Virus record (IMG/VR): IMGVR_UViG_3300032006_000003
Coordinates: 18,757 to 82,756 of that record
DNA: 64,000 bases
Reading direction: 5' to 3' (one strand)
Origin: a virus
Every line of letters begins with the position of its first letter. Position 1 is the first letter of the stretch. Shown piece after piece: positions 13,244 to 22,737 of the stretch. Under the pieces are notes generated by a model, which saw only the letters and a program-made list of their open reading frames with translations, searched no databases and was not told where the DNA came from. The position numbers and the translations under genes are program-made.

Positions 13244-14547
13244 AACTTCTTTGTCAATAGAAAATCTCTAAACCATTGTGCCGTACTCTGTTCTTGTGCT
13301 TTTCTCACAGTTTTTTCTACCTCCTTCTCATCTAATAAAATATCTTCTGGTAATTCCTTCTCCTTATCAAGATCACCCCCTCTTACTAAAGCGTCATTAT
13401 TCTGAAGATTAAATCCTTTTTCCATTGATTGTACATATCCTCCTATTGAAGCTGCTGCTTCTAATGGTGGTTCAACTACACTTTCTGAATCTTGTTTATC
13501 TCTTCGTCTTTTTTCTTGTACTTTATTAACGAAGTCATTTTGTTTTACATCTGTATTTAAAGGCTTATCACCTTTTCGTTCAATATACTTTGGTATTTTA
13601 TCACCCGTTCCTTGACGAGGTTGAACAACTGTTAACGTATGTGGTGCGCCTCCGCCAACTGTATCAGCTTTCTCCATCGCTTGAAAATTATTACCACTCT
13701 GGGCTGGCATTTCTAAAGTGGCTCCTGATTTAATATATCCTTTCTGTTTTTTTGGTATTTGCTGCGCCCCTACCTTTTCATCTGCATCATTCATTTCAGC
13801 CCCAGCCCGTCCTGATTCCATTAATCCCGCCATCCCCATATTATGAGCAACTGGATTAGTAGGTACGCTGTTCTCTGTTTTAGGCGTGTCTTCTGATCCT
13901 TCTCCTTGTAAAGAATCAGCTGGACGTAATCGTTGATGTGGGTTTAAACTATAGTCATCGTAATGCGAAGGAGCATTATGATTCTTTTTAAGTTCGGTTC
14001 GAGCAAATTGTACTAGGTCATAGACAAAAGATTTATCGAGGTTTTGTACCGTTGCGTGAGAATGGTCTGGTGTTGTACTCATACCAACACTACTCGTTCC
14101 CATCCCGGTCGTGATCACCCCCTTTCGTCGATTAGATTTGATTTCAGTATATGGTTCCCCATATGCCTTGTCAAGGGATTTAGTAGGGGAAAAGTCCCTA
14201 AGAAATGCATCGACTCTCTCAATACCACTTTTCTCTTTAACCTTCTTTTTATCATTATCAAAGGCTTCATCTGCATCCTCAGTACTTGTAAAAACAATAT
14301 CATCATCTAAGTCTTTTCGTAACTTCTTTTTCTTTGGAAACGTTGAACCGTATGTCGTTGTTGAAACATCCGCAGATGTAAACCCTCCAATGGCTCCGCC
14401 GCCTCCGTCCCCTTCTTTCATAAAATCAATAAATTTTTCATAGCCCGATGCGTGGGCAGCTTGTGAAACCTCCTCTGCTTTTTTACGTGAATTAAACGGA
14501 CCCTTACTTCCCCAATACCATCCATCACTCTTCTTACTAATCGGCAT
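13240..14547 (-). CDS. Disordered protein with N-terminal small folded domain
   Basis: A 435-residue protein. The first 40 residues (SDGWYWGSKGPFNSRKKAEE ... ASGYEKF) form a compact motif of the type WYWGSKGPFxSRxKAEEV that occurs in other phage head proteins. The remainder is largely disordered, Lys/Glu/Gly-rich, with short LDK and MEK-type helices (NLDKSFVYDLVQFARTELKK near 175). The start overlaps the end of the portal gene by 11 nt, so it is a portal-linked gene, perhaps an internal or portal-associated virion protein. Function not recognised. Confidence 0.7.
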   Translation of the reverse strand: MPISKKSDGWYWGSKGPFNSRKKAEEVSQAAHASGYEKFIDFMKEGDGGGGAIGGFTSADVSTTTYGSTFPKKKKLRKDLDDDIVFTSTEDADEAFDNDKKKVKEKSGIERVDAFLRDFSPTKSLDKAYGEPYTEIKSNRRKGVITTGMGTSSVGMSTTPDHSHATVQNLDKSFVYDLVQFARTELKKNHNAPSHYDDYSLNPHQRLRPADSLQGEGSEDTPKTENSVPTNPVAHNMGMAGLMESGRAGAEMNDADEKVGAQQIPKKQKGYIKSGATLEMPAQSGNNFQAMEKADTVGGGAPHTLTVVQPRQGTGDKIPKYIERKGDKPLNTDVKQNDFVNKVQEKRRRDKQDSESVVEPPLEAAASIGGYVQSMEKGFNLQNNDALVRGGDLDKEKELPEDILLDEKEVEKTVRKAQEQSTAQWFRDFLLTKKL

Positions 14548-16534
14548 TGTCTACTTCCTTATCTACTTCCTCTCTAGTATTACCGACTTGAGAAGGGTTA
14601 TAACTAATCTTAGGAGTATCTATAGTATTCTTAAAGGTTGCTTTTTCTACCCCTAGAATACCCGCACTTCCTAATGTAGCTGTATAATCTACCCCTTCAT
14701 TTACAAACCATAATTGTTTACCATCAGAAGTCATATCTTTTAGAATAGGGGCAACATAACCTCGACCAGTTAAGTCTTCAATCCATGACTTATTCATTAA
14801 GGTTAATTCATTGTTCTTATTGCGTCCTTCAGCGAACTCATCAATATCTCTTTCCTCGAAAGGAGATTTGTCATGCCAATCAGGAGTTCGTCCTGCGAAG
14901 CGTCCACCAAACTTCTTTGCATCTTTTCCTAATGACATATTCTGTAAAGGTATCTGTGGGGCAGGCTCTGATCCGGGTCCTTCACCACCTCCCGGTGCGG
15001 CTCCTGTATTACCGGGGGCTGGATTAACTCCTGTCATTCCCGGTACATTAGCTTGTTGTTGGGCTAATTGGGCTTCCATAGCTTCTTCTTGCATCCTCAT
15101 TTGCTGTACGCCCAATGCCATTTGTTCCCCTTGCATCTCCGCCATTGGAACAGCTTGACCGCCAATAATAAATTCTGCCTGATCTAGTGGTACATCATCC
15201 TCTTTAAGAGAGACTTGATAACCTAATTGTAAGTACATAGCGGCTACTTGCGCCCTTTGCTGGGCAAAGCTAATGCGAGTAGCTTCTGCTTTCTCTTCAG
15301 GGTTTTCCAAATGTATTTCATAATCTGTTATGCCAAAAGCTTCAAGAATTAAAGGGAAGACTTTTTCATGGAAGATTCGTTGATCTCCTTCTACTACACG
15401 ACTCATAACAACTAACTGTTGAGTCTGTGTTGATAATCCACCGAATGCTTCTGGTGCGCCTTGCCATGCTGGAGTTACACCCCACATAGCTGCAATACGT
15501 TCTCGTATTTCATTACGTACTGGAAGATAATCCATCTCTTGTAAAGTATGGAATAGTCTAAGTAGTTCTACTCTACCCCTTTGATTCCTAGAAGAGACAG
15601 CAACCATCGGTACATAGTTAGGGTCTTGCCGTGTCTGAGCCGTAATGTTTTCACGTTCTCGTCGCAGACTTTCAGGATCGTCTGTATAGACCATCATCAT
15701 TGCCGCAGGCATTTTTCTCTCAAAGAAATAACGAAATAGGTTTTTATCCATACCAATTAAGGTTAATGCTTTTTCAAAGATTGTTAGGATAGGACTCCAT
15801 CCATATGTTTCTGAAGGAGTAAATTTAGAACTATGAACTATTTCGGCATCGAACATATAAATGTGCTTATTCCGATGATAGTACTTATACATGACAGGGC
15901 GAAGATCGACTTCACAATCTTCTTCTTGGCAGTTTCCGGGTTCCTCATGGACTTCTTCTCTGTGTATTGGACACATAAAATGTGCGTTCTTAGGTAAGCC
16001 AGCTGCGTCAAGATCGAATTCGACAAGGGCTGGATTAAGTCTTCGGACTTCTTTAACTTTTGATCTGATGGTTCCATCATCGCCTGCCTTATACTCTTTA
16101 GCTAAGTATAAAAATCCGTCATCAATAGAATTTATATCGAAATGAAACTGTCTTAATACTTCTTCAAAGCTTTGATCAAATACATTACAGTCATCTAAGA
16201 AAGCTTTTAATCTATCTAACTGTTCTGTATCAGGGTCTTCGACTGTGGGTTTAAAGATTATCCCCCTACGAAAAACCTCATTAGTTATATGTTGAAGTGG
16301 TCCTCTAATCTCTTCTACTGAAAAAGCTACCATCTGTAAGTCCATTACCAATTGTTGGCGATACGCCATTTGGTGACGTACCCATGTATTAACAATATGA
16401 TCAAGACCTATAGTTGGTGCTTGTCCTATATCCCCTGCCGATTTCATTAAATCTAATTGATTTAATTGATTAGTTAGCTGAACCATTTGGTCAGCCATAT
16501 GGGGGACTTCAGGTAAGTATTCTGATAATCTCAT
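14537..16534 (-). CDS. Portal protein
   Basis: A 665-residue protein matching phage portals in size and layout. It has an N-terminal helical region (residues 20-130), the clip and wing region with FTPSETYGWSPI near 240, a long stem-like helix section (RYFFERKMPAAMMM), the GVTPAWQGAPEAFGGLSTQ block near 355, and a Gln/Ala-rich helical tail (residues 440-500). It would form the dodecameric DNA channel at one head vertex. An unusual insertion near residue 190 carries CPIH ... NCQEEDC, which could bind zinc. The C-terminal 130 residues add a further domain (WHDKSPFEERDIDEFAEGR). The terminase and small genes lie just upstream. Confidence 0.85.
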   Translation of the reverse strand: MRLSEYLPEVPHMADQMVQLTNQLNQLDLMKSAGDIGQAPTIGLDHIVNTWVRHQMAYRQQLVMDLQMVAFSVEEIRGPLQHITNEVFRRGIIFKPTVEDPDTEQLDRLKAFLDDCNVFDQSFEEVLRQFHFDINSIDDGFLYLAKEYKAGDDGTIRSKVKEVRRLNPALVEFDLDAAGLPKNAHFMCPIHREEVHEEPGNCQEEDCEVDLRPVMYKYYHRNKHIYMFDAEIVHSSKFTPSETYGWSPILTIFEKALTLIGMDKNLFRYFFERKMPAAMMMVYTDDPESLRRERENITAQTRQDPNYVPMVAVSSRNQRGRVELLRLFHTLQEMDYLPVRNEIRERIAAMWGVTPAWQGAPEAFGGLSTQTQQLVVMSRVVEGDQRIFHEKVFPLILEAFGITDYEIHLENPEEKAEATRISFAQQRAQVAAMYLQLGYQVSLKEDDVPLDQAEFIIGGQAVPMAEMQGEQMALGVQQMRMQEEAMEAQLAQQQANVPGMTGVNPAPGNTGAAPGGGEGPGSEPAPQIPLQNMSLGKDAKKFGGRFAGRTPDWHDKSPFEERDIDEFAEGRNKNNELTLMNKSWIEDLTGRGYVAPILKDMTSDGKQLWFVNEGVDYTATLGSAGILGVEKATFKNTIDTPKISYNPSQVGNTREEVDKEVDNAD

Positions 16535-16537
16535 ACA

Positions 16538-16981
16538 CTATTCCCTCTCGGTTAAATTAGTCATATCTGACATTGAAACCAGTTTAACAATATTATTCAT
16601 AGCTTTTTCTTTTAGTTCATAATCTTCTGATCTTTGAACCTTACGAATTGTTATAGCATTCGTTTCTTTTAGATCAGCAATTTCTTGTCGTAACTGGATA
16701 ATTGTATCATCTTTCTCCTGTGTTACATCTTCTAGTAGTCCTTCTTCTCCTTCAAAGGATGCATTTTGAAGTACACCCATTCTGGCTGCTTCTCGTATTA
16801 ACGAGATAAAAGCCCCCTCAGTTAAAATTGTTACTGCGGGATTATCATCTTCGATATCATCATCAGGACCTACTTGGGTTAAAGCCTCGTGCCATGTATC
16901 CAAAATCCGCCATGTTGATGTTGTATCATCCCTATGAGCAACATACTGCTGTTCTCGTCCACGTAAAATATTACCTAACAT
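16538..16981 (-). CDS. Hypothetical protein encoded before portal
   Basis: A 147-residue protein with an N-terminal alpha/beta part (STWRILDTWHEALTQVG, ILTEGAFISLIREAARMG) and a C-terminal coiled-coil (DTIIQLRQEIADLKETNAITIRK). No cysteines and no membrane segment. It ends 3 nt before the portal start, so it is in the head gene run. The coiled-coil may mediate oligomers or portal contact, but the function is unknown. Confidence 0.68.
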   Translation of the reverse strand: MLGNILRGREQQYVAHRDDTTSTWRILDTWHEALTQVGPDDDIEDDNPAVTILTEGAFISLIREAARMGVLQNASFEGEEGLLEDVTQEKDDTIIQLRQEIADLKETNAITIRKVQRSEDYELKEKAMNNIVKLVSMSDMTNLTERE

Positions 16982-17001: not shown

Positions 17002-17008
17002 ATTATAC
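17002..17008 (-). promoter_or_regulatory. Putative -10 element upstream of the portal block
   Basis: Minus strand reads AAGTAGTATAATAGAAT, starting at the stop codon of the glutaredoxin gene and about 20 nt before the next start. It shares the TAGTATAATA form with the copies at 42750 and 60854. No -35 box is obvious. Confidence 0.4.
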
Positions 17009-17238
17009 TACTTGCTTAAAGCTTTCTCCAATTTACCCGGAGCAAACCCCGCAATCATATCTGTTCCTATAACTGTAACTGGTGTAACTCTAAAACCCAT
17101 CCGTACTAAATCTTCTGCGTAATCAGCATTTTCTGAAATATTATATTCAGTAAATTCATGTCCGTTCTTTTTCAACCAAGACTTGGTTGCTGTACAAGGA
17201 CCTCAACCACTACTCGTGAATACTTTAATATCAGCCAC
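17008..17238 (-). CDS. Glutaredoxin/NrdH-like protein with in-frame TGA (putative selenocysteine, UGPC)
   Basis: A 76-codon gene whose product has the glutaredoxin fold order: strand DIKVFTSSG, active site x-GPC, helix TATKSWLKKNG, strand EFTEYNI, cis-proline block RVTPVTVIG, and the GFAPGKLEKAL end. The 12th codon is TGA (17203-17205), exactly where the first active-site cysteine of CGPC is expected, so reading it as selenocysteine gives UGPC. The frame is open and conserved-looking on both sides. TGA serves as a normal stop in other genes here, which argues against a code change. A hairpin follows at bacterial SECIS distance. Start is GTG with GGAGG 4 nt upstream, overlapping the zinc-ribbon gene. 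The likely role is reduction of the class II ribonucleotide reductase encoded at 19198-21036. The alternative is a nonsense mutation or sequencing error making it a pseudogene. Confidence 0.75.
17173..17189 (-). promoter_or_regulatory. Bacterial SECIS-like hairpin in the glutaredoxin gene
   Basis: Directly after the in-frame TGA, minus strand CAACCAAGTCTTGGTTG folds into a 6-bp stem (CAACCA/TGGTTG) with the apical loop AGUCU. There are 13 nt between TGA and stem and 19 nt between TGA and loop. Bacterial SECIS elements sit in the coding region roughly 15-40 nt after UGA and need a G near the start of a small apical loop. The E. coli fdhF element has the loop GGUCU, close to this one. The fold is seen in the sequence; SelB binding is inference. 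Confidence 0.65.
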
Positions 17239-17341
17239 CTTCCCTCCTTTGTTTACGTTCACAAACATAACATATCTTATGCCCTTTCTTAATACTTAGT
17301 TTAACACCACATTTACATTTTGACCAATTACGTCTAGCCAT
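17231..17341 (-). CDS. Tiny zinc-ribbon peptide
   Basis: A 36-residue basic peptide (MARRNWSKCKCGVKLSIKKG, then HKICYVCERKQRRE). The pairs CxC and CxxC form a minimal zinc site and the ends are Arg/Lys-rich, fitting a nucleic-acid-binding knuckle. It overlaps the membrane peptide gene before it by 8 nt and the glutaredoxin gene after it by 8 nt, and its last codons contain the glutaredoxin ribosome site, so the three are coupled. Too short for usual gene callers, but the packing and cysteine spacing support it. Confidence 0.62.
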   Translation of the reverse strand: MARRNWSKCKCGVKLSIKKGHKICYVCERKQRREGG

Positions 17342-17451: not shown

Positions 17452-18879
17452 TTATTCGTTAGTAACCGTTACTGTCGGTGCGCCAGTAAGAACCTCTACG
17501 TTGTCACTAACATTCCAGTTAGCTGCGGTTACGCTCTGATTAATCTTAAACTCCTTAGTTGCAAATCCGTCTGAAGCACCAGCGTTACCACCACCACCTA
17601 TCTCGTTAAGCTGAATAGTTAGGGTTCCAATCTTCATACGGTCGAAGGAACAAGAGCCTCCTTCAGTATACAAATTGCTCAGAATCAGCTTATCTATTTT
17701 TCCATTAACAGCGGATGTAGGAGCATCTATATGTATGCGGTCATATGTACCGCCTGAAGTTACCATTGCTTCTGCCTGATGATGACCTCCGCCAACTGCT
17801 CGCATTCTGGAAGTCCCCGGAGTCTGGTTAATACTTTGACCATCTGAGGCATTTCCAATTATGTTAATGGTGTGTGCTGTTATGTTGTCAAAGTACATAG
17901 TTGTACACCGTGACTTTTCAATTAGCATTTCACCTACCTCTAGGAATGTACTTGTCTCACCATTACCACTCTTTACTGTTCCACCAATCAATACCGCAGT
18001 CGCACTAGCGGCTGTTCCATTAAGAGAAGTATGTGCAGAAGATGGTACTGCACCTCCAGTAAATACAGTTCCTACTGTTACATTCTCAATTTTAATCTCT
18101 CTTACGGGAGTCGAACCCATAACAACTCTTAACGTGTTGTCTTCCTTATATTCTTGCCTCCAAGCCATTGCCTGTTCCAATGTGGGATCAGGGTTTTGAG
18201 CAGGGGCGGCGTATATGCCTGAGTCACCGTTTGTGAAGCTTCTGTCAGCCAAAACTGTCTCATTCACCACGACTCCAGTTCCAGCAGTACCTCCGATTGC
18301 GAGAAGTCCTATTGCCATCTGTGGACTGAATCCCATCATTCTTAGGAATGAATATGGAGACATCAGTATTTTAAATGTCGTCTTCCATTTTGCCGATTCA
18401 TTATTAGCATATTCAATCTTTTCCAATACCCAATTTCGCCAGACCGTAATTTTTTTGTATAGAGTAATCGGAGATCGTAGAATTGCTTTTGGAGCCGTTC
18501 TAAAGTTATTTAAGTGTAGCAATAGTCCAAATAGGATTAAACCTGATGAAACTCCTATAGTAGGAATTAAATTAGCTTGTAGAAATAATACTTGAGTATA
18601 TAACTCATTTGCTAATCCCATTGAGATATAAGGAGTAATTGCTGGGATTGGATTAATATAAGATACAAATAACCCTAGGCCCCCTAGCAGTACGAGTAAA
18701 GCTGTATTAATGGCTCCCACCACAGTACTAATCCCTTTTAAAGGAATTTTAATAGAAGGCAAATTAACTTTAGGCATATCCAAACGTATCATTGGCAATG
18801 ATGCTTTCGGCAATCTAAAACTGATTTTAGGCATATTAAGTGTTGGAATTGTTAATTTTCGTAAAAAACGTTTAAACAT
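17452..18879 (-). CDS. Multi-span membrane protein with beta-rich C-terminal domain
   Basis: A 475-residue protein from the ATG at 18879, chosen because GGAGG lies 6 nt before it; an upstream ATG at 18960 would overlap the previous gene by 71 nt. Residues 1-50 carry repeated basic LPxI-type segments (LPKASLPMIRLDMPKVNLPSIKIPL). There are three hydrophobic spans near residues 50-78, 95-130 and 190-210. The rest (about 215-475) is a soluble Gly/Thr/Val-rich beta domain with repeated I-x-NVTVGT-like strands. The beta half is more GC-rich than the membrane half. It may be a membrane-anchored virion or host-surface protein; function unknown. Confidence 0.68.
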   Translation of the reverse strand: MFKRFLRKLTIPTLNMPKISFRLPKASLPMIRLDMPKVNLPSIKIPLKGISTVVGAINTALLVLLGGLGLFVSYINPIPAITPYISMGLANELYTQVLFLQANLIPTIGVSSGLILFGLLLHLNNFRTAPKAILRSPITLYKKITVWRNWVLEKIEYANNESAKWKTTFKILMSPYSFLRMMGFSPQMAIGLLAIGGTAGTGVVVNETVLADRSFTNGDSGIYAAPAQNPDPTLEQAMAWRQEYKEDNTLRVVMGSTPVREIKIENVTVGTVFTGGAVPSSAHTSLNGTAASATAVLIGGTVKSGNGETSTFLEVGEMLIEKSRCTTMYFDNITAHTINIIGNASDGQSINQTPGTSRMRAVGGGHHQAEAMVTSGGTYDRIHIDAPTSAVNGKIDKLILSNLYTEGGSCSFDRMKIGTLTIQLNEIGGGGNAGASDGFATKEFKINQSVTAANWNVSDNVEVLTGAPTVTVTNE

Positions 18880-18889
18880 AGCGGACCTC

Positions 18890-19171
18890 CTATTCATCAA
18901 ATGACAGTATGTATATTGGAGTTCGTTCTCCCATATATGCTCCACGGATATTAAACTCAAAAAAGTCTATTGCATCTTCATAAGTCATCTTATCTCGCTT
19001 CACCAGCACATCTAAAATTTTTTCCTCACTATATACTGCTCGTGGTGGATCATCATCAGTTACGCCTAAAAATGCTTCTGCGTAATCCATCCGTTCTTCA
19101 TCTGATCCTAACACTAACAGACTTTCATCCATCATTTCCGCCCATTCCATTGCAATCTCTAATCTATTCAT
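18890..19171 (-). CDS. Small acidic phage protein
   Basis: A 93-residue acidic protein, helical (EIAMEWAEMMDESLLVL, ERMDYAEAFLGV), ending with MTYEDAIDFFEFNIRGAYMG then ERTPIYIL. The DAxxFFEFNxxGAxxGExTPI block is familiar from uncharacterised proteins of many phages, where function is also unknown. It lies between the ribonucleotide reductase and the membrane protein gene. The ATG is only about 12 nt after an AGGAG and directly follows a GTATAATA motif. Confidence 0.7.
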   Translation of the reverse strand: MNRLEIAMEWAEMMDESLLVLGSDEERMDYAEAFLGVTDDDPPRAVYSEEKILDVLVKRDKMTYEDAIDFFEFNIRGAYMGERTPIYILSFDE

Positions 19172-19197: not shown

Positions 19198-21036
19198 TTA
19201 TGCTATGACACATACACTAAAACCGCAGTTTTTACATGTCTCACACCCTGAATCAGCTACTATATAAGGTGAATCACAACATGGCTCATTCATTGGAGAG
19301 TCTTGTGTACCTTTAACTAGTACTTCTTTCTCTCGACTTCCTGCCCTATACACAGTAATTCCTTTACATTGTTCTCGCCACGCCAACATATATGTATCGT
19401 ATACATCCTCAACTGTTGCTTCTGTAGGCATATTAATAGTTTTTGATATACCTGAATCTATGTGAGGCTGGAAGAATGCTTGCATTAATACATGGTCAGC
19501 AGCTGAGATTTCAGGAGCCGTAATATATATCTTTTTAATATCGTCAGGTACTTCATCTCTATCCTGTAAGGATTCTCCTTTAGCTAAAGCGTTCATTAAC
19601 TCTTCAGAATAAAACCCTCGATCACGGGCTTCCTTCTCAAAATATTCATTAGTATATCGTAAAGTCTTGCCTTCTAGTATATTTTGCTTTTCCCATGCTA
19701 AAGCGAATGTAGGCTCAATTCCTGATGAACAGTTAGCAATCATAGAAATAGTTCCCGTTGGGGCGATAGTCATACGACACGCATTTCTATATACCTCTGT
19801 AATTGGATGAAAATTACTCTGTTCAAAAGCTGGAAAAGGTCCTCGTTTAACTGCAAGATCGAGAGATGCTTGATCAGCAATCTCTTGAATATATCTTATA
19901 AGAGATTGCCCAATTTTTCTCGCTTCTAATGAATTATATGGAACCCTAAGTTGTATTAATAAATCAGCGAAACCCATTATACCTACACCAATCTTTCGAG
20001 TAGCTTTTGTCATCTTCTCAATAGCAGGCGTAGCATAATGATTAGCGTCAATAACATTATCTAGAAAGTTTACAGATAACTGCGTAACTCTTTTTAAGCC
20101 TTCCCAATCAATTTTATCTTCCCATTTTTCAGTCCATTCATCCTGATAAAATTTTGCTATATTAATTGAACCTAAGTTGCAAGATTCATTTGGTAATAGT
20201 GGTTGTTCACCACATGGATTTGTAGCAATCATTTGACCGAACTCTTTCTTAACATGATTATCCGCATTTACTTTATCTAGAAAAATCATTCCCGGCTCAC
20301 CATTTTTCCATGCCCCTTCACATATCTTTTTAAATACGTATCGTGCTGATATAGTATCAACCATATGCTTTGTCTGTGGATCAATTAACCCATATGACAG
20401 GTCATACTCAACCATTTTCATAAACTGAGTATCAACGCCAACACTAATATTGAAATTGTGTATATCACCTTCACTAGATTTAGCGTCGATAAATTCAAGA
20501 ATGTCGGGATGATAGACAGACATAACAGCCATATTCGCTCCATCACGTTTACCTCCCTGTGTAATCATGGACGAAACTCTTGAAAGTGTTTTTAATACTT
20601 CAATTGGTCCACAAGCAACACCATGTGTAGATTTAATTTTGGCTCCTTTAGGACGGAGTTTGGATAATGAAAATCCTGTTCCACCCCCAAATTTCTGTAC
20701 CATTGCGGAATCTGTAGCGGCTTGCATAATACCTTCCATACTATCTTCTAAAGGGATTACAAAACAGGCAGACAACGTACCTTGTTCTGTTCCTGCATTC
20801 ATTAATGTAGGCGAATTTGGAATAAATTCAAAATTTGACATCATATGATAAAAATCTAATTCAAGCATAGTTTTCTCAACAGGTAACGTAAGGTACTGAT
20901 TTTCTATATCAGCAACTGCTTTTGCTACCCTTTTAAATAAACCATCAGCGTCTTCAACAGGCTCACTTTTTTCATTCTTTAAAAAATATCTGTGTCCTAA
21001 TACCGTTGCTGCCTGCGGTGAAACTGTTGTTGTCAT
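19198..21036 (-). CDS. nrdJ: Class II adenosylcobalamin-dependent ribonucleotide reductase
   Basis: A 612-residue enzyme that converts ribonucleotides to deoxyribonucleotides for phage DNA synthesis using a B12-generated thiyl radical. Visible blocks: FIPNSPTLMNAG with GTLSACFV (C91), VQKFGGGTGFSLSKLRP, the catalytic NPCGEQPLLPNESCNLGS (C275, E277, C286, the latter pairing with C91 as redox partner), GVGIMGFADLL and RMTIAPTGTISMIANCSSG. The C-terminus has several cysteines (SGCETCKNCGFSVCVIA), the mobile redox tail that a glutaredoxin or thioredoxin reduces. The lack of a class I small subunit gene and of a glycyl-radical motif supports class II. The glutaredoxin-like gene lies about 2 kb downstream in the same direction. 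Confidence 0.92.
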   Translation of the reverse strand: MTTTVSPQAATVLGHRYFLKNEKSEPVEDADGLFKRVAKAVADIENQYLTLPVEKTMLELDFYHMMSNFEFIPNSPTLMNAGTEQGTLSACFVIPLEDSMEGIMQAATDSAMVQKFGGGTGFSLSKLRPKGAKIKSTHGVACGPIEVLKTLSRVSSMITQGGKRDGANMAVMSVYHPDILEFIDAKSSEGDIHNFNISVGVDTQFMKMVEYDLSYGLIDPQTKHMVDTISARYVFKKICEGAWKNGEPGMIFLDKVNADNHVKKEFGQMIATNPCGEQPLLPNESCNLGSINIAKFYQDEWTEKWEDKIDWEGLKRVTQLSVNFLDNVIDANHYATPAIEKMTKATRKIGVGIMGFADLLIQLRVPYNSLEARKIGQSLIRYIQEIADQASLDLAVKRGPFPAFEQSNFHPITEVYRNACRMTIAPTGTISMIANCSSGIEPTFALAWEKQNILEGKTLRYTNEYFEKEARDRGFYSEELMNALAKGESLQDRDEVPDDIKKIYITAPEISAADHVLMQAFFQPHIDSGISKTINMPTEATVEDVYDTYMLAWREQCKGITVYRAGSREKEVLVKGTQDSPMNEPCCDSPYIVADSGCETCKNCGFSVCVIA

Positions 21037-21045
21037 GAAAACCTC

Positions 21046-22737
21046 CTATCCTCTATAGTTACAATAAATGCAAAATTTGCGTTCCGGGACCCAAAATGAT
21101 GGTCGGCACTCTCCTTCATCACACTTTGGGTTAGGGCAATCCTTCATTGTTAAATCTGAATTGATTGACCCACTATAATTCATTGGCGGGGAATGTGTCA
21201 ATAACTCATCTCCATCTTGCTTATCTGTAACTGTAGATTGGACATCAAAGTTCATTTCTGCTGCTGGACTCGCATCGCCTGCTATATCATCTGCCCATAT
21301 TTGAATGTTTCCAACATGGACTACCTGATTCCACGTATGTTCATGGGCTGCCTGTAAAGCCATAGCAATCGAAAAGAATGCGTCCCCATGTCCCATCGGA
21401 GTTTCAGGTGCTTTTAATTCATTATTTACTGATAAAATTTGTTGTTTTTGTCGTTCATCTTTTAGGAGACTTACTCTATCTCCATGTACATATTGTTCAA
21501 AAATTTGTGCCATTGTGTTCTTTGCTTTTAATGTAAAATGCATAGGCCACCATGAATGGTCTAATCCTCTATCTTCTAGTTCGCCACGAGTATTATCTAT
21601 ATATCCTTTTGTTAAATCGTAATGTTCCGCTACCTCATTTAAATATTCAATTTGATCAGAGTAACTCCACCCATCTAACCATGATTGGTGTATTTGACGG
21701 GCTACCCCATTCTTTACACTAAAAATTACTAAGTGTGATGGGTGTCGTTTCTTTCCTACATCAAAGCCTGCAAATAACTGTTCATCTCTATCCACTTCAT
21801 ATCCTTTAGAGATAGGATAATTTTTTAAGTTTGCGTCTTCACATTTAGTAATATCATCATCTTCAAAATAAGCCTCTGTAGAAAAGTGTGGAATTAACAT
21901 GAACTCCGAAGCAAATGATTTAGGTCTGGCTCGTTGCTGTTGCAATAACCACTCTTCACTATATAGTTCAGGCATTAACACTCTTCTATCGGGGGCAGGG
22001 TCTAAAGCTGGAAGTACCCTAGATTTAAACCGATCATCATCTTGTAGCTTAGAAAGTAAGTCTCCCGGCATCATTGGAGTTCCTAATACAATAACAGGTA
22101 CTCCTTTCAATGGAATGAATAAACTCTCTGTAAGAAAGTGATCTTCGACTTTAGTAATCTGTGTAGCATTTAAGGGGTTCTCTGGGTCACGCATTACGTC
22201 ATCAGCTATTAAAGCCCCATTCACATGCATTCCACGTTTAAATGAAAATAGTCCTCCATGCATAATCTCAATCGGTTTATTATCTTTCATATACCGAAAC
22301 GAATAATCAGCCTTTGGATTCCTATTTGTAATCATATCCTTTAATAGGGGATTACGATTAACTGTCTTATTAATTTCTGAGATATGATACTGCGCCATTC
22401 CATCGCTATACGATAAATAAAGTACTGACATATCTCTAGTAGCCTGTAAGAGTCTCCAAATACTGAAGGCATGACCTAACACCGTAGATTTAAAATGGAA
22501 TCTAGGTAGTACAGCTACGTAATTTAAGTCTTCCTGTAAGCATTGTTCAATATCTTCAGCTACTACTCCTACATGCCAAGCCCTAAAATATTCAGGATGG
22601 TCAAATCCTTGTGACCAAATGTCTCTAAGAAACTCCCAAAAGCTTCCTTTAAATTGTGTACTTCCACCAGAGACTAACCCGTCAGCTAATTGGGAAAATG
22701 CATCAGTATAAGTAGTAACAGATTCTTTAGTAGTCAT
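21046..22737 (-). CDS. terL: Terminase large subunit
   Basis: A 563-residue DNA-packaging motor. The ATPase domain shows an adenine-binding and Walker A-like PRFHFKST (about 78-85), Walker B LIADDV (about 176) and the coupling motif GTPMMPGD (about 218). The nuclease domain has FAGFDVGKKRHPS (about 317), YIDNTRGE and HGDAFFS, matching the RNase H-like terminase nuclease. The C-terminus ends in a zinc site (CPNPKCDEGEC ... CIYC), which is less common. It starts immediately after the small subunit gene (1-nt overlap). It packages DNA into proheads through the portal. Confidence 0.92.
   Translation of the reverse strand: MTTKESVTTYTDAFSQLADGLVSGGSTQFKGSFWEFLRDIWSQGFDHPEYFRAWHVGVVAEDIEQCLQEDLNYVAVLPRFHFKSTVLGHAFSIWRLLQATRDMSVLYLSYSDGMAQYHISEINKTVNRNPLLKDMITNRNPKADYSFRYMKDNKPIEIMHGGLFSFKRGMHVNGALIADDVMRDPENPLNATQITKVEDHFLTESLFIPLKGVPVIVLGTPMMPGDLLSKLQDDDRFKSRVLPALDPAPDRRVLMPELYSEEWLLQQQRARPKSFASEFMLIPHFSTEAYFEDDDITKCEDANLKNYPISKGYEVDRDEQLFAGFDVGKKRHPSHLVIFSVKNGVARQIHQSWLDGWSYSDQIEYLNEVAEHYDLTKGYIDNTRGELEDRGLDHSWWPMHFTLKAKNTMAQIFEQYVHGDRVSLLKDERQKQQILSVNNELKAPETPMGHGDAFFSIAMALQAAHEHTWNQVVHVGNIQIWADDIAGDASPAAEMNFDVQSTVTDKQDGDELLTHSPPMNYSGSINSDLTMKDCPNPKCDEGECRPSFWVPERKFCIYCNYRG

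Follow-up and report, generated by a model that had tools for sequence, protein, structure and literature searches.

An NrdH-like glutaredoxin gene with an in-frame TGA in an uncultured tailed phage: a probable phage selenoprotein

Can a phage encode a selenoprotein and leave its decoding to the host? The question is raised by one short gene in the window analyzed here, a stretch of 64,000 nucleotides from the IMG/VR virus record IMGVR_UViG_3300032006_000003 (positions 18,757 to 82,756). The window belongs to an uncultured tailed phage with an SU10-type capsid protein, a family A DNA polymerase, DnaB and DnaG, and the gene is a glutaredoxin frame whose catalytic motif opens with TGA. Viral selenoproteins are rare. 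Sec-glutaredoxins are an experimentally verified family in bacteria (PMC13188914); that source, a 2026 review of the prokaryotic selenoproteome, nowhere refers to phages or viruses, and an ocean survey lists glutaredoxin selenoproteins without mention of phages (PMC2398784). A tRNA-Sec gene in Basilisk-like Bacillus phages was called the first in phages (PMC6145125). No phage-encoded selenoprotein was found in the open-access literature searched; an earlier report is possible outside it.

The redoxin gene and its in-frame TGA

The gene and its signals, in window coordinates, are as follows:

17231..17341, minus strand: 36-aa upstream ORF with CxC/CxxC, whose ordinary TGA stop overlaps the redoxin GTG start
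17243..17248, minus strand: Shine-Dalgarno sequence AGGAGG, four bases before the redoxin GTG start (direct sequence reading)
17008..17238, minus strand: putative NrdH-like Sec-glutaredoxin coding sequence, 76 aa, with GTG start at 17238, UGA-Sec at codon 12 and TAG stop at 17010-17008
17203..17205, minus strand: in-frame TGA, the putative selenocysteine codon (codon 12), at the first position of U-G-P-C
17194..17196, minus strand: resolving Cys of U-G-P-C, TGT at codon 15, invariant in alignment A1
17173..17189, minus strand: SECIS-type hairpin of class A, CAACCA-AGUCU-UGGUUG, with the loop at 17183-17179 and G at loop position 2

Translation from 17238 to 17008 on the minus strand reads VADIKVFTSSG*GPCTATKSWLKKNGHEFTEYNISENADYAEDLVRMGFRVTPVTVIGTDMIAGFAPGKLEKALSK and then TAG. 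Codon 12 is followed by GGU CCU UGU, which yields the active site U-G-P-C. A preliminary description made from the letters had reported a 76-codon glutaredoxin frame with TGA as its sole interruption, and both the translation and the match to the Pfam glutaredoxin family PF00462 (E=5e-12; 46.2 bits against a gathering score of 22.9) agree with it to the base. Translational coupling of the 36-aa ORF with the redoxin is likely. Some relatives, e.g., L004, also have a cysteine-bearing frame before the redoxin, like this micro-ORF.

The nearest NCBIfam models are the NrdH and YruB-type glutaredoxins, both scoring below cut-off; for NrdH (TIGR02194) the score is 60 bits against a curated cut-off of 85.75, and the protein may work like NrdH, yet is not filed as one. 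Scores against the UXX-star selenoprotein families (NF041212, NF041211, NF045501) reach 43 bits, and lower, against a cut-off of 66. An AlphaFold2 model computed with 12 related sequences as input (mean pLDDT 94.7) has a thioredoxin fold with CxxC at the start of helix 1, and its closest solved structures are E. coli NrdH and cGrx1 (TM 0.83-0.91).

Comparison with known systems places the protein between these neighbors. Like the Sec-glutaredoxins (UxxC, PF00462), exemplified by cGrx1 (PDB 7c10), which we take to be from Clostridium oremlandii/OhILAs, it has the U/CxxC motif, the fold (TM 0.91), predicted Sec at the attacking position and a bacterial-type SECIS within the gene; it differs from cGrx1 in being phage-encoded beside a phage class II ribonucleotide reductase (RNR), in its hairpin class (A) and in sequence (~35% identity). 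It resembles NrdH-redoxins (TIGR02194; E. coli 1h75, M. tuberculosis 4hs1) in size, fold (TM 0.86-0.87), the C-terminal GF-P motif and coupling to ribonucleotide reductase, here by gene neighborhood, but has putative Sec in place of the first Cys and scores below the curated cut-off. UXX-star (seleno)proteins are likewise small glutaredoxin-like selenoprotein domains, from which the window protein is set apart by scores far below cut-off and its UGPC motif. Judged by sequence, then, the gene appears to be a phage-borne form of a known bacterial kind, the Sec-glutaredoxin. NrdH/glutaredoxins of cultured phages (331 INPHARED records) belong to the same family at <60% identity; in the one that was read, from Staphylococcus phage Machias, the position is Cys. 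The Machias gene (MW349128.1, 63967-64185) is an intact, unannotated Cys NrdH-like gene near an annotated RNR flavodoxin gene.

The hairpin and its coupling to the TGA

The 6-bp hairpin with loop AGUCU, beginning 13 nt after the TGA, was found just as first described and is present in the predicted fold. Published bSECIS constraints ask for a loop of 3-9 nt with G in its first two positions, a stem of 4-16 bp, a distance of 16-37 nt from the UGA and an MFE <= -7.5 (PMC13188914). The proposal that the hairpin is a bacterial SECIS is consistent with every one of these in loop, G, stem, spacing and energy, the window element having a 5-nt loop of pattern NGUNN and a 6-bp stem, 19 nt from the UGA, at -11.2 kcal/mol. 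Folding energy alone was rejected as a measure of significance: the single-sequence fold is unremarkable, with a z-score of only about -1.2 and 20 of 200 shuffles folding equally well. The hairpin stands above chance because of its conservation in 52 viral contigs, its covariation and the codon choice inside it.

Searched at the protein level with the window redoxin, IMG/VR returned four relatives (51-73% identity), each of which has TGA at this codon; a search with an alignment gave 25 loci, the window-like ones with TGA and L032-L036 with TGC or TGT. The preliminary description had expected Cys or Sec at this column in homologues, and the column indeed holds only TGA or Cys (82 TGA and 9 Cys alignments; codons TGA, TGT and TGC). 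IMG/VR was also searched with a DNA pattern that required TGA within the redoxin motif and left the hairpin free. It matched 57 contigs, comprising 52 true redoxins and 5 chance matches without a redoxin. A SECIS-type hairpin is carried by 52 of the 52 TGA-redoxin contigs, which come from 30-odd metagenomes; because TGA was demanded, this count tests only the co-occurrence of TGA and hairpin and gives no estimate of the Sec/Cys ratio among phages. Class A hairpins, like that of the window, account for 39 contigs from 21 metagenomes, and class B for 13 contigs.

In a lone genome, an in-frame stop such as this TGA can always be put down to a sequencing error or a disabling mutation, with the redoxin as a pseudogene. 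Recurrence of the same TGA in 52 viral contigs, its replacement by TGT or TGC only, and the conservation of class A redoxins (47-77% identical to the window protein) past the TGA make that reading extremely improbable.

Variation within the stems points to pairing. The outermost class A pair is C-G in 13 distinct sequences, U-A in 12 and unpaired in 4, and the other class A changes are wobbles (A-U to G-U, C-G to U-G); class B stems show U-A/C-G and G-C/U-A exchanges. Overall, 97.7% of class A stem cells pair, versus 6-48% with the partner shifted along. Both classes have an invariant G at loop position 2 (AGNNN in class A, NGUNN in class B). Codon choice inside the class A hairpin follows suit: Lys, whose codon provides the loop G, is written AAG in 31/31 genes (versus 34/123 Lys codons in the rest of these genes), and Thr is written ACC in 27/30 (versus 11/173 in the rest), counts that are indicative and not phylogenetically independent, since the sequences are related. 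By these signs the hairpin appears to be selected as RNA.

Cys orthologues provide a natural control. Those of L032-L036 lie at the same place in their phage genomes (terminase - NrdJ - redoxin - 147-aa protein - portal). Their peptide is still MATKSWL, yet its ATKSWL is encoded by GCT ACG AAA TCT TGG TTA, where the window has GCA ACC AAG TCT TGG TTG. These codons break three of the six class A pairs, remove the loop G and destroy the hairpin; the predicted energy of the segment reaches no more than -4.8 or -6.4 kcal/mol. L038, the Cys form from SAR202, likewise has no class B helix. The hairpin thus tracks the TGA and not the protein sequence. One syntenic locus has both putative Sec and Cys orthologues, the hairpin being confined to the former, and amounts to a natural experiment on selenocysteine gain and loss. 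In L032-L036 the motif is C-S/A-P-C instead of CGPC; the Sec/Cys difference accompanies a change of the next residue.

Hosts and phages that recode UGA exist, and a phage or host that assigns UGA to a standard amino acid (Trp, Gly or Cys, as in a code 4/25-like system) would also explain an open frame. Here, however, TGA is the ordinary stop of 6 of the 47 main genes, in keeping with the preliminary judgment that a code change was unlikely, and it also ends the 36-aa ORF that overlaps the redoxin start. Free reassignment would, moreover, need no hairpin. Further selenoproteins were sought by comparing all TGA-containing frames of the 82.7-kb record with the fetched loci: the redoxin gave the only clean U/C column, and the remaining rows appear to be antisense shadows of real genes, or else mixed in residue or low in count. 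A changed code is, on these grounds, scarcely credible; with TGA in use as a stop and a single clean TGA/Cys column, SECIS-directed recoding remains.

Cellular relatives and the decoding machinery

Among cells, the closest relatives found belong to SAR202-type Chloroflexota. Among 79 genomes related to the SAR202 MAG of L038, 17 contain a strongly matching redoxin gene that has a single in-frame TGA and carries a class B hairpin (L090-L097, L099-L107), some of them on megabase contigs and some of those >3 Mb; the codon that is TGA in these 17 loci is Cys in L038. The chromosomal genes share family, TGA codon and nearly the same SECIS distance with the window gene, and differ in having the class B hairpin GUGAAAG-NGUNN-CUUUCAC where the window has class A. 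In a tree built on few columns, class B phages group with SAR202-type cells (L063 and L071 fall among them, with moderate support of 81/77) and the class A sequences are phage-only.

Searches for SelA, SelB and tRNA-Sec covered the same cells: SelB scores over its cut-off in 69 of the 79 genomes and SelA in 67, and most have strong tRNA-Sec matches. This bears on another reading, in which the hairpin does drive recoding and the residue inserted is Cys, delivered by a sulfur-charged Sec-like machinery or by a tRNA-Cys with anticodon UCA. Variants of the Sec system that insert Cys are known, and Cys and Sec interchange at this very column within the family. Cells with the same gene nevertheless have full-length SelA, SelB and tRNA-Sec, and a UGA with its SECIS would be pointless for Cys when TGT is one base away. 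Cys insertion is accordingly rated very unlikely, and Sec is preferred because of the machinery in related cells.

The phage itself appears to contribute none of this machinery. Neither the window nor the remaining 18.8 kb of the record gave a tRNA or Rfam match, no SelB gene was found in the record, and 27 related loci have no tRNA; phage-encoded Sec machinery was rejected on these results. With no tRNA or SelB gene there, decoding must rest on the host, and we infer that the phage uses host SelB and tRNA-Sec. If the gene works, its host must decode Sec.

SAR202 as the host of the window phage is not established: the window terminase has only 35-37% matches in the class of SAR202, and the class A hairpin design is absent from the cells sampled, its pattern being missing from 393 genomes of that class and from 399 Pseudomonadota. 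An archaeal host, hinted at by halovirus-like portal matches, was judged unlikely because the replication genes are of bacterial type (PolA, DnaB, DnaG) and because the SECIS elements of archaea are mostly found in 3'-UTRs (PMC13188914).

A separate set of SAR202-type frames deserves mention. G040, G055, G061, G029, G059 and others contain frames of 240-300 aa with one in-frame TGA and a weak redoxin profile match, possibly HUGP/GUXX-star fusion selenoproteins; a quick motif check of L120-L122 for such fusions found nothing.

The phage locus and the role of the redoxin

The genes around the redoxin are as follows:

21046..22737, minus strand: terminase large subunit (tblastn to annotated terminases; syntenic in relatives)
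19198..21036, minus strand: class II (adenosylcobalamin) ribonucleotide reductase NrdJ (TIGR02504, 668 bits, over cut-off; Pfam; Cys-rich C-terminus)
17452..18960, minus strand: 502-aa conserved phage protein between RNR and redoxin, kept in related phages, with no Pfam or PHROG match
16538..16981, minus strand: 147-aa conserved phage protein immediately after the redoxin, kept in related phages, with no Pfam or PHROG match
14537..16534, minus strand: portal protein (Pfam PF04860, weak; halovirus portal matches)

INPHARED holds no nucleotide-level relative of the redoxin region. The sole INPHARED relatives of the portal protein are from haloarchaeal tailed viruses (27-30%), alongside replication genes of bacterial type. 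In L060, a TGA redoxin with a class A hairpin sits between DNA polymerase and single-strand-binding genes, outside the RNR-portal locus, and the redoxin gene has therefore moved within the phage group.

NrdJ, the presumed redox partner of the redoxin, is one large gene away, about 2 kb upstream. Class A phages have it close to the redoxin, as do most class B phages whose flanking sequence is long enough to tell; in several class B phages an RNR with only 46-49% identity lies no more than about 2.5 kb from the redoxin. Ribonucleotide reductases are known to receive electrons from NrdH-type redoxins. Given that background and a class II RNR near the gene in both phage groups, the redoxin probably reduces the phage class II RNR, a role suggested by gene neighborhood and family resemblance. 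Alternatively, the selenoprotein could be made for general antioxidant or thiol repair in the infected host. Glutaredoxins have many substrates, and SAR202-type cells keep the same protein on their chromosomes. The closest families and folds, however, are NrdH redoxins and cGrx1, and a class II RNR adjoins the gene in class A and lies near it in several class B phages despite the RNR divergence just noted. An antioxidant role is for these reasons the less likely one, though it deserves more weight than any of the alternatives to Sec itself.

Taken together, the gene very probably encodes a phage selenoprotein, an NrdH-type U-G-P-C glutaredoxin whose hairpin would be a SECIS recruiting host SelB. 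The host ribosome would read 11 codons and then meet the UGA; the downstream hairpin, acting as a bacterial SECIS, would recruit host SelB with Sec-tRNA-Sec, and selenocysteine would be inserted in place of termination. In the finished 76-aa redoxin, Sec12 would be the attacking nucleophile and Cys15 the resolving residue, and the protein would most likely re-reduce the phage's own class II RNR and so feed phage DNA synthesis. The recoding signal, its conservation, its coupling to the TGA, the gene neighborhood and the predicted fold are read from the sequences themselves, and from them we infer actual Sec insertion. The preliminary description is thus confirmed in what it observed and, as far as sequence can tell, supported in its interpretation.

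More tentatively, and with slightly greater doubt than confidence, two distant groups of uncultured dsDNA phages may each have kept, across deep divergence, a Sec redoxin with its own SECIS as a dedicated reductant of class II RNR, the class A SECIS being a phage-specific design. Were this true, phage DNA synthesis would depend on the selenium status and Sec machinery of the host.

If the selenoprotein reading is correct, an active-site residue of a phage enzyme is tied to the selenium economy of its host. Host range would be limited to Sec-decoding bacteria, and the gene could serve as a genomic marker for such hosts. Since standard annotation would cut the gene at the TGA, phage selenoproteins may be generally overlooked.
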